Positions 37,473-41,564 of a DNA stretch of 44,344 nucleotides are shown here, piece by piece. The notes under the pieces are model-generated. The model made no database searches. It was not told where the DNA came from and saw only the letters and a list, made by a program, of their open reading frames with translations. Position numbers and translations under genes: made by a program. Each line of letters opens with the position of its first letter. Positions within the stretch are counted from its first letter, which is position 1. The stretch is from Longimicrobium sp. (GTDB lineage: Bacteria; Gemmatimonadota; Gemmatimonadetes; Longimicrobiales; Longimicrobiaceae), in NCBI RefSeq assembly GCF_035474595.1, contig NZ_DATIND010000090.1, positions 1 through 44,344 of the forward strand, read 5' to 3'.

Positions 37473-37781
37473 ATGCGGAAGCTGAGGCTGGATCCCGAGG
37501 AGCTGCGGGTCGAGACGTTCGTGCCCAGCGGCGGGCGCGACGGTCAGGGCACCGTGTACGGCCACTACTCGTACCCGAACGGGTGCTTTCCCCCGTCCGA
37601 CAGCGATCCGGCGCTGGAGAGCTGCGGCTACAACACCTGCGCGGGGATCACCTGCCAGCAAAGCTGCAACGGCTACACCTGCGGGTGCGATCCCGTCGGC
37701 TCGGCGCAGTGCGACTCCATCGGCTACACCTACTGCATCAAGGACATGTCGTGCATGGCGCAGTGCCTGCCACCGCGGTAG
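37473..37781 (+). CDS. Cys-rich RiPP precursor-like peptide A
   Basis: 102-aa peptide from ATG 37473, with GGAGG seven bases upstream. It begins with the family leader MRKLRLDPEELRVETF and has GTV at residues 26-28, exactly as in peptides E and F. The C-terminal ~65 residues contain eleven Cys plus many Ser, Thr and Tyr, with clusters such as CNGYTCGCDP and YCIKDMSCMAQC. The leader is like that of pinensin-type lanthipeptides found in Bacteroidota and Gemmatimonadota, a recalled family rather than a search hit. No signal peptide is present. Peptide A is the longest member here and has a terminator of its own. Confidence 0.7.
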   Translation: MRKLRLDPEELRVETFVPSGGRDGQGTVYGHYSYPNGCFPPSDSDPALESCGYNTCAGITCQQSCNGYTCGCDPVGSAQCDSIGYTYCIKDMSCMAQCLPPR

Positions 37782-37801
37782 CCACCGCCCCCCCGTTTCG
37801 A

Positions 37802-37834
37802 GCGCCGCGGCCCCAACGGGCTGCGGCGCGTTTT
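37802..37834 (+). terminator. Terminator after peptide A
   Basis: GCGCCGC (37802-37808) pairs with GCGGCGC (37823-37829), followed by GTTTT. Confidence 0.7.
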
Positions 37835-37865
37835 CGTGTCACATCCGCAAACGTTTAGCGACACG

Positions 37866-37895
37866 TTGCGCAAATCGCGGGGTCTTGATTATCAT
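37866..37895 (+). promoter_or_regulatory. Promoter of peptide B
   Basis: TTGCGC (37866-37871), an 18-bp spacer, then TATCAT (37890-37895), 78 bp before ATG 37974. Together with the terminators on both sides it makes peptide B an independent unit. Confidence 0.55.
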
Positions 37896-37973
37896 CGTGC
37901 GCCGCCACGCCGCGCCTCCACGCGCCGCAGGTCTCCGGCGGCTTCCGATCCCCCCATCTGGAGAAACCCGGCG

Positions 37974-38132
37974 ATGCAGAAGATCCGCCTGGACCTGGAC
38001 GCGCTCGTGGCCGAATCGTTCGCGCTCGCCGCCCCGCATGCGGATGGCGAGGGAATGATGGAGGCATACGGCGCCGGGCAGACCCGGAACTGTGCCACGC
38101 CCCTGTGCACCGCGGGCACCTCGTGCCTCTGA
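37974..38132 (+). CDS. Short Cys-containing RiPP precursor-like peptide B
   Basis: 52-aa peptide with leader MQKIRLDLDALVAESF, matching the family consensus (K-I-x-L ... ESF). Its core is short: a glycine-rich GEGMMEAYGAG followed by a tail with three Cys and several Thr/Ser (CATPLCTAGTSCL). If processed at the usual point, only about 20 residues would remain. A GGAG lies ten bases upstream of the start, a weak spacing. It is the most divergent member, so confidence is lower. Confidence 0.6.
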   Translation: MQKIRLDLDALVAESFALAAPHADGEGMMEAYGAGQTRNCATPLCTAGTSCL

Positions 38133-38146
38133 CGCTCTGAGCTTCC

Positions 38147-38174
38147 AGGGAGCCGGTATCCTCCGGCTCCCTTT
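38147..38174 (+). terminator. Terminator after peptide B
   Basis: AGGGAGCCGG (38147-38156) pairs with CCGGCTCCCT (38163-38172), followed by TT. Confidence 0.7.
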
Positions 38175-38283
38175 CGCGTCCGCGGCCATCCCCTTTCGGC
38201 CGCGGGCCGGGCACTCCGCCCGGCAACCGCTCCGTCCGGAGCGCCCTATCCACCCATCCCCCACATCTCCAGGAGCAGTTCCG

Positions 38284-38891: not shown

Positions 38892-38920
38892 CATCCCCAT
38901 TCCGAATCGCCCCTGGATCT

Positions 38921-38996
38921 CACGCGAAGACGCGGAGACGCAGAGAACTCACCGCATGGGCCGAGCTCTCCGTGTCTCCGCGTCTCCGCGTGAGTC
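38921..38996. repeat. Foldback element of ~75 bp
   Basis: Imperfect 32-bp arms beginning CTCACGCGAAGACGCGG and ending CCGCGTCTCCGCGTGAG, about four mismatches. A half-copy (GTGAGTTCTCCGCGTCTCC) lies at about 26017-26042. The sequence sits between peptide D and asnS. Confidence 0.55.
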
Positions 38997-39131
38997 CATC
39001 CGTTGCTTTGCGGGGCGGGATGCGGGGTTTCGCCCGATCCCTTATGATTCCCGCTTCCAGTTGACGGCGCCCGGCGCGCGACCCGCGCCGGGCGCGCTGC
39101 CTAGAATCGCCCGACCGTACCCGCGCGGACC

Positions 39132-40532
39132 ATGCTCAAACCGACCATCAGGGACTTCCTTTCCGGCGCCGTGGAGCCGGGCGCCGCCGTGACCGTGCAG
39201 GGATGGGTGCGCACCCGCCGCGACTCCAAGGCCGGCATCTCGTTCATCAACGTGAGCGACGGCTCCGTCTTCGCCACCATCCAGGTGGTCGCGGGGAAGG
39301 AGCTGCCGAACTACGAGAGCGACGTCCTGCGCCTGACCGCGGGGTGCTCGGTGGTGGTGCGCGGCGAGCTGGTGGCCACGCCCGGGCGCCCGCAGCCGGT
39401 GGAGGTGCGCGCGGCGGAGATCGAGGTGCTGGGGTGGGTGGACGACCCGGAGACGTACCCCATCCAGCCCAAGCAGCACTCGATGGAGTTCCTGCGCACG
39501 GTGGCGCACCTGCGCCCGCGCACGAACACCTTCGGCGCGGTCGCCCGGGTGCGGCACACGATGGCGATGGCCATCCACCGCTTCTACGACCGCAACGGCT
39601 TCTTCTGGGTGCACACGCCCATCATCACCACCAGCGACGCCGAGGGCGCGGGGGAGATGTTCCGCGTGAGCACGCTGGACCTGATGAACCTGCCGCGCGC
39701 CCCGGGCGGGGAAGTGGACTTCGCGCAGGACTTCTTCGGGCGCCCGGCCTCGCTCACCGTGAGCGGGCAGCTGAACGTGGAGGCCTACGCGCAGGCGCTG
39801 GGGCGGGTGTACACCTTCGGGCCCACCTTCCGCGCGGAGAACAGCAACACCAGCCGGCACCTGGCCGAGTTCTGGATGATCGAGCCGGAGCTGGCCTTCG
39901 CCGACCTGAACGACGACGCCGACCTGGCCGAGGATTTCCTCAAGGCCATCTTCACCGACCTGCTGAACGAGCGGGCCGACGACATGGCGTTCTTCGCCGA
40001 GCGCGTGGACCCCGAGTGCGTGAAGCGCGTCGAGGCGTTCCTGGAAAGCAGCTTCGAGCGGATGGACTACACCGAGGCCGTGCGCCGCCTGGAGGCCAGC
40101 GGCCAGAAGTTCGAGTTCCCGGTGCAGTGGGGGATGGACCTGCAGAGCGAGCACGAGCGCTACCTCACCGAGAAGCTGGTCGGCCGCCCCGTGGTGGTGA
40201 TGAACTATCCGCGCGAGATCAAGTCGTTCTACATGCGGCTGAACGACGACGGCAGGACGGTGGCGGCCATGGACGTGCTGGCCCCCGGCATCGGCGAGAT
40301 CATCGGCGGGTCGCAGCGCGAGGAGCGGCTGGACGTGCTGGACCGGCGCATGGCCGAGATGGGGCTGGACACGGCGAGCTACGGCTGGTACCGCGACCTG
40401 CGCCGCTACGGCACGGTGCCGCACGCCGGCTTCGGGCTGGGCTTCGAGCGGGCGATCCAGTACGCCACCGGCATCGCCAACATCCGCGACGTCATCCCCT
40501 ACCCGCGCACGCCGGGGAGCGCGGAGTTCTGA
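39132..40532 (+). CDS. asnS: Asparaginyl-tRNA synthetase
   Basis: 466-aa class IIb aminoacyl-tRNA synthetase. The N-terminal OB-fold anticodon-binding domain (~15-110, [11 protein letters not shown]) is followed by the class II catalytic core: motif 2 [20 protein letters not shown] and motif 3 [16 protein letters not shown] near the C terminus. The length is typical. It charges tRNA-Asn. Peptide genes A-D lie upstream and E-F downstream, with terminators between, so it is probably its own transcription unit. No SD is obvious before ATG 39132. Confidence 0.95.
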
Positions 40533-40555
40533 GCGGCCCTGTCTCAAGCGGAGAC

Positions 40556-40596
40556 GCGGAGGACGCGAAGAATTGCTTCGCGTCCTCCGCTTTTTT
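40556..40596 (+). terminator. Rho-independent terminator of asnS
   Basis: Perfect 15-bp stem (GCGGAGGACGCGAAG with its complement, 40556-40570/40576-40590), 5-nt loop, then six T. Confidence 0.9.
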
Positions 40597-41090
40597 GCAT
40601 CTCCCAATCCTCCACAACAGCCTTCACATAGAGGCTCCGTCATCCCGAGAACAGACGGCGATTGCGCTCGTCACTGGTCTGCTACGAGGCACGCCGTGCG
40701 ATGGAAGTCGAAGGTTTGCAGGCCTTGATGGAATCGCGGGAGGGAGTTAAGGTCAGAGGCATACCGCACATTTAAGCTCACAAAGGGATGCACGCGCATG
40801 CGCAACGCGCTATCCGTCTCGCCCTCTCGTCCCGCCGCCACGATGGCGACGCCGGGAGCGTGCACCTGTCGTTGTCGTGCGCGAGGGCGGTGAATCATCC
40901 GCGGACCGTTCGCCTTTCGGGGCGGACGGTCCGTTCGCGTTCTCTACCCCGCCGCGAGCGCGTGAGCCGAAGCGGGCCAACCCTGACCGGAGAAACTTCG
41001 GTGAACATCGGGTGCTTCTGCACCGAGTACGTGTCGTGCTTCGACTGTACCGTCTGAACGGGCGGCAAACCCCGGACGAGGGAGGAAACG
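40597..41090. other. Spacer with possible degraded peptide gene
   Basis: About 490 bp of somewhat lower GC in its first part. The only structure I can support is the Cys-rich frame end at 40962-41057. No promoter or repeat stands out. Confidence 0.4.
40962..41057 (+). pseudogene. Possible peptide gene G, leader missing
   Basis: A frame from GTG 40962 ends in GETSVNIGCFCTEYVSCFDC followed by TV and a stop. Four Cys in the pattern C-x-C-x5-C-x2-C resemble the cores of the neighbouring peptides, and it lies just upstream of peptide E. No leader motif is visible in any frame upstream, so it may be a decayed precursor. Confidence 0.3.
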
Positions 41091-41282
41091 ATGAAGAAGT
41101 TCAGGCTGGCGGTAGAGGAGCTGTGCGTGGAGTCGTTCGGCACCGCCGCGGCGGACCCGGCGCGGGGCACCGTGCGCGCCGCCGAGGCCACGCCCGCCAC
41201 CGGCTGCGCCCTGTGCGGCACCGCGGCGGTGGGCGGAAGCTGCTTCAACGGGTGCACCATCGACAACTGCGAGATCGGCTGA
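41091..41282 (+). CDS. Cys-rich RiPP precursor-like peptide E
   Basis: 63-aa peptide with a full leader MKKFRLAVEELCVESF and GTV at residues 26-28. The core has five Cys (TGCALCG, then GGSCFNGC and DNCEIG) among Ser and Thr residues; a sixth Cys lies in the leader, which is unusual. GGAGG lies upstream of ATG 41091. Peptide F follows after 75 bp, so the two may be cotranscribed. Confidence 0.7.
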   Translation: MKKFRLAVEELCVESFGTAAADPARGTVRAAEATPATGCALCGTAAVGGSCFNGCTIDNCEIG

Positions 41283-41357
41283 AGCGCGGCGGAAGTGCCG
41301 CGGTGGCCGGGCCGCGGGGGCGGTCCGGGATGAACCATCATCAGGGAGATGGGAACG

Positions 41358-41564
41358 ATGAAGAAGCTGAGCCTGAAGGTCGACGACATCACGGTGAGCT
41401 CGTTCACCACCGACGAGTACGACGACGTGCGCGGCACGGTGGAGGGGAACGCCATCACCGTTCCCCCGCGCTGCTCCGGCACGGTGAAGTTCGACGGCGG
41501 CGACGACGACTGCACCAGCGGGTGCGTGTGCTGCCGCTTCCGCCCGGCGCCCAAGCCGCAGTGA
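41358..41564 (+). CDS. Cys-rich RiPP precursor-like peptide F
   Basis: 68-aa peptide: leader MKKLSLKVDDITVSSF, GTV at 26-28, and a core with five Cys including a tight C-x-CC group (GCVCCRF). ATG 41358 is preferred since the leader then aligns with A and E; ATG 41349 adds three residues. The tail is basic (RPAPKPQ). An octamer repeat array starts a few bases after the stop. Confidence 0.68.
   Translation: MKKLSLKVDDITVSSFTTDEYDDVRGTVEGNAITVPPRCSGTVKFDGGDDDCTSGCVCCRFRPAPKPQ

Follow-up and report, generated by a model that had tools for sequence, protein, structure and literature searches.

The 44,344-nucleotide stretch of Longimicrobium sp. DNA analyzed here (the window) is an entire contig (NZ_DATIND010000090.1 of assembly GCF_035474595.1, in our numbering C90; 44,344 of 44,344 bases). 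It carries six short open reading frames (ORFs) on the forward strand between positions 37473 and 41564, which encode cysteine-rich peptides with related leaders. Four of them lie 5′ and two 3′ of asnS (asparaginyl-tRNA synthetase; 39132..40532, +), an open frame that forms a syntenic anchor between two peptide islands and had a match of 78-91% identity in all seven genomes searched. The name asnS is presumptive, as are the names nth and ftsH used below; all three were assigned from reading the sequence and from the initial annotation, without a profile search. Since the window is the whole contig, the view to the right of the peptide genes is limited to about 2.8 kb, compared to 37 kb on the left.

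Precursor peptide 1 (37473..37781, +; 102 amino acids) combines the leader MRKLRLDPEELRVETF...GTVYGH with a core of 11 cysteines, scored 42.2 bits with the leader model described below, and has GGAGG upstream and an in-frame codon score. Peptide 2 (37974..38132, +; 52 amino acids) has three cysteines and lacks a GTV motif; it scored 37.5 bits with the leader model and has a codon score and a stretch resembling a ribosome-binding site (RBS). Peptide 3 (38284..38475, +; 63 amino acids) starts with the short leader MLNPEDLTVESF followed by a CTGCxSGCG core and matched the NCBI model NF038180 (leader_pinensin) with 16.9 bits, below the cut-off of 24. Peptide 4 (38651 or 38654..38836, +; 61 amino acids) is a paralogue of peptide 3, is recognized by the leader model, and has relatives in the interval between nth and asnS. 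Beyond asnS, peptide 5 (41091..41282, +; 63 amino acids) has five core cysteines, a leader model score of 50.5 bits, and a relative between asnS and ftsH in the related genome G011, and peptide 6 (41349 or 41358..41564, +; 71 amino acids) matched NF038180 with 18.6 bits, again below the cut-off, and has two relatives in G011.

All six ORFs are preceded by a purine-rich RBS-like stretch, have a third-position GC content of 0.88-0.97, and scored positive in their own frame only with a codon model whose training set consisted of nine genes picked by eye, including one that scored negative (probably owing to an out-of-frame start); the model was used both for picking ORFs and for this test. On the basis of these RBS-like sites, the in-frame codon usage, and the relatives of four of the six beside asnS in other genomes, the six window peptides are real genes. 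Their cysteine counts (3 to 11 per peptide) agree with the initial annotation, which had described six short cysteine-rich genes on one strand. The leader consensus given there (KKLxL, then [DE][DE]LxV[ES][ST]F) was correct overall, but its KKLxL half is missing in peptides 3 and 4, which begin with LNPEDL and MNPDDL, respectively. These two also share the core CCTGCxSGCGxNPTGGGCESASGQIYC, so that the C termini are not all unrelated, as had been assumed. A Pfam search with the six peptides found no family, and the NCBIfam search gave only the two sub-threshold matches mentioned above.

A model built from the six window leaders had at least 150 matches in the 6.57-Mb source genome (G000; all 150 scored of 231 candidates, E up to 10). 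NF038180, a model of independent origin, matched at least 127 places (E up to 10; 150 of 159 candidates scored), 19 of which were marked as exceeding its cut-off; in 14 control genomes it matched in eight at E up to 10 and in none above the cut-off. Around the matches of these two models, 1.51 Mb (23% of the genome) was examined with a leader model seeded with 80 ORFs from the same genome and a threshold of 12 bits. This yielded 195 distinct ORFs, including the six window peptides and 180 of the 181 places of the two models; coming from 23% of the genome, the number is a lower bound. The search for further leader ORFs suggested in the initial annotation was thus amply rewarded. When the same 1.51 Mb was reversed, no match reached 12 bits and one reached 10 bits, and 516 kb of reversed DNA from relatives contained no match of at least 10 bits, which rules out a chance origin of the motif.

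The 195 ORFs are distributed over 57 contigs and 111 separate loci, 79 as single genes and the others in 32 groups of two to nine. ATG is the start codon in 187, a loose RBS-like stretch precedes 183, and the median length is 68 amino acids; an ORF of only 32 amino acids (C121:69633), probably a fragment, was retained. The leader consensus is M[KR]K[LIM]xLD[LVP][DE]xLxV[ED]SFxT. In 165 peptides this is followed, no more than 18 residues on, by a GT[VIM] motif, with glycine or alanine as second residue after the valine in 99% of these 165. In three peptides of the genome (C97:5710, C119:9821, and C119:13160) the core motif occurs two or three times within one peptide, possibly giving multi-core products.

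The initial annotation had stated that no modifying gene lies within reach of the six peptides. This holds for the window, which however ends with the contig; enzymes are present on another contig, C23. Absence of any maturation enzyme was rejected: the genome encodes four LANC-like proteins, two of them parts of LanM proteins (C25, C136), one part of a LanKC (C87), and one a separate cyclase on C23, as well as two PF04738 proteins, at the end of C4 and the end of C23. On one strand of C23, a LanB1 truncated at the contig end comes first, then LanB2 (PF14028, 144 bits), LanC (PF05147, 195 bits; 683 amino acids with a C-terminal extension), six leader peptides at C23:11032-12505, and finally the genes for an ABC transporter, for HlyD, and for an S8 subtilase. 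LanB is split, PF04738 and PF14028 being located on separate proteins, and the combination of split LanB and cyclase for which a genome search had been proposed thus stands next to peptides with the same leader. The distance to LanB or LanC is below 20 kb for only these six of the 195 leader peptides. Since maturation enzymes exist on C23 but so few peptides are encoded beside them, any action on the remaining peptides must occur in trans, which supports the earlier proposal of a precursor library served in this way.

LanB1, LanB2, and LanC also follow each other on one contig in the related genomes G011, G014, G017, G007, G001, and G009, with LanB1 and LanB2 as separate ORFs. The order of the C23 cluster is repeated in G007 and G017, and the stretch from G011 ends inside the ABC gene. 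In LanC, the motifs WCHG (C313) and CHG (C360, H361) are invariant in eight sequences; by analogy with NisC, these cysteine and cysteine-histidine residues are presumably the zinc ligands. The best NCBIfam match of the C23 cyclase was TIGR03897, below the cut-off of that model, and the protein is nearer to LanM cyclase domains. The partial LanB1 genes of C23 and C4 adjoin low-complexity stretches rich in proline, alanine, and glutamate. Contig C136 (L011 300-7945) carries a LanM, two YcaO proteins, and two similar small ORFs of the GG type and might represent a separate lanthipeptide or azoline cluster. On C87 (L012 5190-8714) a class III LanKC lies between two short cysteine-containing ORFs with another type of leader. 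At two further loci (L117 8825 and L113 13242), split LanB of a second and divergent type is accompanied by precursors that contain long repeats, e.g., CSNCSGCTGCSNCSDC.

Within the same family, the model of the six leaders (E up to 1e-4) had matches in 10 of 21 genomes, at 103, 111, 99, 36, 30, 28, 11, 5, 4, and 1 places. PF14028, the LanB elimination domain, was found in exactly these 10 genomes, the other 11 lacking it. Eight of the 10 leader-bearing genomes (G000 counted) encode a relative of the C23 cyclase that covers nearly its full length, including the extension, with 53-81% identity. Leader matches are fewest in the remaining two of the 10, G004 and G013; the LanC of G013 is divergent, and that of G004 is 41% identical and cut by the contig end before an extension could show, in a genome that is 61% complete. 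When the leader model was widened (E up to 0.001), at least 150 matches each were obtained in G011 and G014, 83 in G017, 76 in G001, 49 in G007, 18 in G009, and 11 in G015; altogether three genomes have at least 150 leader matches. In a sample of 298 genomes from the phylum, in which 26 candidates were scored per large genome, leader matches occurred in 10, nine of which also have PF14028. The tenth, G264, had a single weak match inside a frame of 1,583 amino acids.

The predicted model of the C23 cyclase (predicted local distance difference test score, pLDDT, 83) matches the folds of LanCL1, LanCL2, LicM2, MadC, and NisC. In a separate model (pLDDT 82), the C-terminal 148 residues are predicted to adopt a PqqD-like winged-helix fold, as expected of a recognition element (RRE) for ribosomally synthesized and post-translationally modified peptides (RiPPs). 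They aligned with the leader-bound lasso protein TbiB1 (Z 10.1, 2.5 Å, 88 of 88 residues), with a leader-bound lasso B1 protein (Z 9.7, 85 of 85), with PqqD (Z 9.1, 94 of 94), and with parts of ThcOx, MccB, TruD, NisB, and MadB (Z 6.5 to 8.4). Because the C-terminal model aligns with RRE proteins, the cyclase probably carries its own leader-reading, RRE-like domain. Metagenome-assembled genomes (MAGs) from Acidobacteria, from Ignavibacteriales, and from further phyla also contain cyclases covering the C-terminal extension, and more distant relatives with this coverage occur in Elizabethkingia and Chryseobacterium. Eight of 15 such loci hold leader peptides of at least 12 bits, 10 peptides in total: those from Ignavibacteriales, Melioribacter, two Chryseobacterium, Elizabethkingia, and G007, together with two loci whose leaders scored 15-16 bits, from a Gemmatimonadaceae MAG and a Chloroflexi MAG. 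No leader match of at least 8 bits was obtained when the 15 loci were reversed.

For the composition of the 195 peptides, the border between leader and core was set by an operational rule (GT[VIM] plus three residues, or F plus 15), which is not a known cleavage site. Cysteine accounts for nine of 6,060 leader residues and for 15.6% of core residues, with a median of six and a maximum of 19 per core; threonine and serine contribute 12.6% and 7.2% of core residues, respectively, and together equal or outnumber cysteine in 190 of the 195 cores. Compared to 200 shuffles, serine or threonine is enriched directly before cysteine (position -1; 0.43 versus 0.21, z 22.8) and at -5 (0.39 versus 0.21, z 16.5), shows a weaker excess at +3 (0.29), and is depleted at -2 and -3. 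The excess at -5 stems partly from cysteines at -4, where the value is 0.80, but persists without cysteine at -4 (0.28 versus 0.205, standard deviation 0.012). Successive cysteines are spaced by four residues 256 times. From these sequences, we infer that the geometry of serine, threonine, and cysteine is the one expected of thioether substrates rather than of plain disulfide peptides.

The interval between nth and asnS contains leader peptides in five genomes of two genera (four in G000, six in G011, five in G014, four in G007, and one in G017), and 16 of these 20 peptides have a CTGCxSxCG core, as found for peptide 3, whose core recurs in this interval in four other genomes. No leader match was present there in G010 and G012, both without PF14028, or in G013 with its divergent LanC. 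Peptides 5 and 6 have their relatives between asnS and ftsH in G011. This suggests that the family described before as split around asnS represents two islands: the one between nth and asnS is conserved in five genomes, and the one behind asnS is shared with G011. In hand-picked pairs, some of which share a peptide, the nonsynonymous rate (dN) was lower than the synonymous rate (dS) in eight of eight core and seven of eight leader comparisons with G011 and in six of seven pairs of paralogous cores; for the core of peptide 5 and its G011 relative, dN was 0.09 and dS 0.32. The lower core dN compared to G011 and the shared synteny suggest that the genes are maintained as peptides. Between asnS and peptide 5, the relic of a further precursor (40995..41048, +) consists of the core TSVNIGCFCTEYVSCFDC without a leader and is 67% identical over 18 amino acids (E 6e-8) to the core of an intact asnS-ftsH peptide in G011, suggesting birth and death of precursors in the arrays. 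The intergenic regions around 41570-41720 and 43990-44040 consist, as judged by eye, of short repeats like AAGTGCGGGAGTGCGG; other parts of the window apparently contain similar pieces.

With a probability that we put at roughly 85%, the six genes encode precursors for a class I (LanB/LanC) lanthipeptide system with substrates dispersed over the chromosome, which would be the class I equivalent of the prochlorosins. The genome encodes LanB functions for glutamylation and elimination together with LanC, the window peptides share their leader with the peptides beside LanB/LanC, and the presumed zinc-site residues of LanC are conserved. According to this proposal, the LanB pair and the cyclase would bind the leader, the cyclase via its fused RRE-like domain. 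Serine and threonine in any core behind the leader would be dehydrated and thioether rings closed with cysteine, after which the subtilase might cut near GTVx[GA] and the ABC/HlyD pair export the product. The cores may diversify as copies arise by tandem duplication or are lost, with the leader remaining constant.

Several observations weigh against this interpretation. The lanthionine or thioether chemistry is a prediction from genes and sequence. No window peptide reaches the NF038180 cut-off, so that the relation to a pinensin profile foreseen in the initial annotation is partial, with two sub-threshold matches in the window and 19 places above the cut-off in the genome. The exact agreement between leader and PF14028 has a probability of 1 in 352,716 by chance, a figure that ignores shared ancestry; in the phylum sample PF14028 occurs in 17 of 298 genomes, eight of them without a leader match. 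G015 and G009 have the cyclase with its extension, yet only 11 and 18 leader matches, G009 being 76% complete. With respect to the RRE-like domain, the highest fold score, Z 12.0, was obtained with a winged helix of Rv2067c, an unrelated protein, and further proteins from outside the RiPP field, e.g., PKMT1 and GdmN, reached Z 8.0 to 8.5. The assembly is rated 3.95% contaminated, and the LanB1 pieces of C23 and C4 (L009 17172-17702 and the end of L008, respectively), both cut by contig ends, are 86% identical over 541 bases and may represent either two genes or a single one in a mixed assembly. Finally, the genome also encodes two LanM, one LanKC, and two YcaO proteins.

It is unlikely that one of the latter, the LanM proteins (C25, C136), the LanKC (C87), or the YcaO pair (C136), modifies the peptides instead. 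All of them exist in the source genome, a single leader peptide each is located at a distance of about 4.5 kb (C25 LanM) or 6.5 kb (C87 LanKC), and the preference for serine or threonine immediately before cysteine is also reminiscent of azoline substrates. However, the C136 LanM and the C87 LanKC adjoin small ORFs of other kinds (L011:3617-4231; L012:5190-5456 and 8490-8714). Moreover, the leader agrees with PF14028 in 21 of 21 genomes, it accompanies LanB/LanC sets in several genera and is found in the vicinity of LanC genes of this kind in other phyla, and G012 and G010 have LanC-like matches but no leader matches. The joint presence or absence of peptides and LanB across genomes argues equally against the view, slightly less likely still, that the products are exported disulfide-bonded or metal-binding cysteine-rich proteins without thioethers, with the leader acting solely as an export signal for ABC, HlyD, and subtilase. 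Such proteins would fit the high cysteine content of the cores, their knottin-like spacing with the frequent steps of four residues, and the exporter genes of the C23 cluster, but disulfides need neither the general surplus of serine and threonine over cysteine nor their preferred positions.

Least probable of all, in our judgment, is that most copies are decaying or unexpressed duplicates and only the six beside the enzymes matter. The leaderless relic in the window and the fragment C121:69633 are examples of decay, and the leader match counts vary from 11 to at least 150 among seven relatives. Against it stand the ATG starts and RBS-like stretches of nearly all of the 195 ORFs, the low dN of the hand-picked core comparisons, both with G011 and among paralogues, and the recurrence of the CTGCxSxCG core at one site in five genomes. 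Returning to the class I system, we favor, with noticeably less confidence than the assignment itself, a broader proposal: one class I set with a cyclase-fused leader-reading domain would process some 200 or more unlinked precursors per cell, making the chromosome a combinatorial library of thioether peptides in which cores are born and lost under a preferred spacing (serine or threonine at -5, cysteine steps of four), with an origin separate from that of the cyanobacterial prochlorosins.

If this is true, few natural peptide libraries of this kind would be as large, and combinatorial lanthipeptide biosynthesis in nature would have a second, independent example, based on a different enzyme class with the glutamyl-tRNA-dependent LanB. 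Mining around the enzymes alone would see six precursors and miss about 97% of the library (189 of 195), which lies elsewhere. The system would permit a direct test of enzyme promiscuity, which might depend here on the RRE-like domain fused to the cyclase and not on a CCG zinc site as proposed for ProcM, and hundreds of natural cores behind one leader would be of use in peptide engineering. It would also raise the question why one bacterium retains hundreds of different, probably secreted, peptides. A dispersed class I precursor library was not found described in the open-access literature, subscription papers being mostly outside that search, and no open-access article combining Longimicrobi* with lantibiotic was found. 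For Longimicrobium terrae, a member of the same phylum, three lanthipeptide-containing clusters were predicted by antiSMASH (PMC7291104); that article mentions neither dispersed precursors nor a shared leader.

Compared to RRE proteins such as PqqD, TbiB1, NisB, and MccB, with which it aligns, the domain described here differs in being fused C-terminally to a LanC cyclase. Pinensin-type class I lanthipeptides occur in Bacteroidota such as Chitinophaga and Pedobacter. According to PMC7268733, pinensin has a split LanB, the pinensin-type LanC is nearer to LanM cyclase domains, 62% of the precursors in class I clusters have a cluster to themselves, and a cluster with 10 distinct precursors is a notable exception. 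The system of Longimicrobium sp. resembles the pinensin-like ones in its NF038180-type leader, split LanB, and LanM-like cyclase, and related loci were found in Chryseobacterium and Elizabethkingia. It differs in its at least 195 dispersed precursors, in leaders that mostly end with GTVx[GA], and in cores with a median of six cysteines. The prochlorosins and synechococsins of marine picocyanobacteria, as presented in PMC10783134, are made by promiscuous enzymes (ProcM, SyncM) from precursors with a conserved leader and variable cores, the genes being scattered singly or in tandem arrays, with 29 precursors for ProcM, 79 for SyncM, and 143 putative ones in BIOS-E1-4 with two ProcM-like enzymes. 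Many dispersed precursors with a constant leader and a variable core, here 195 at 111 loci, are common to both systems. The prochlorosins, however, depend on a class II LanM with CCG and have Nif11/GG leaders, whereas the peptides described here share their leader, KKLxL...VESF...GTVx[GA] without a GG end, with peptides linked to a class I LanB and a LanC with CHG.

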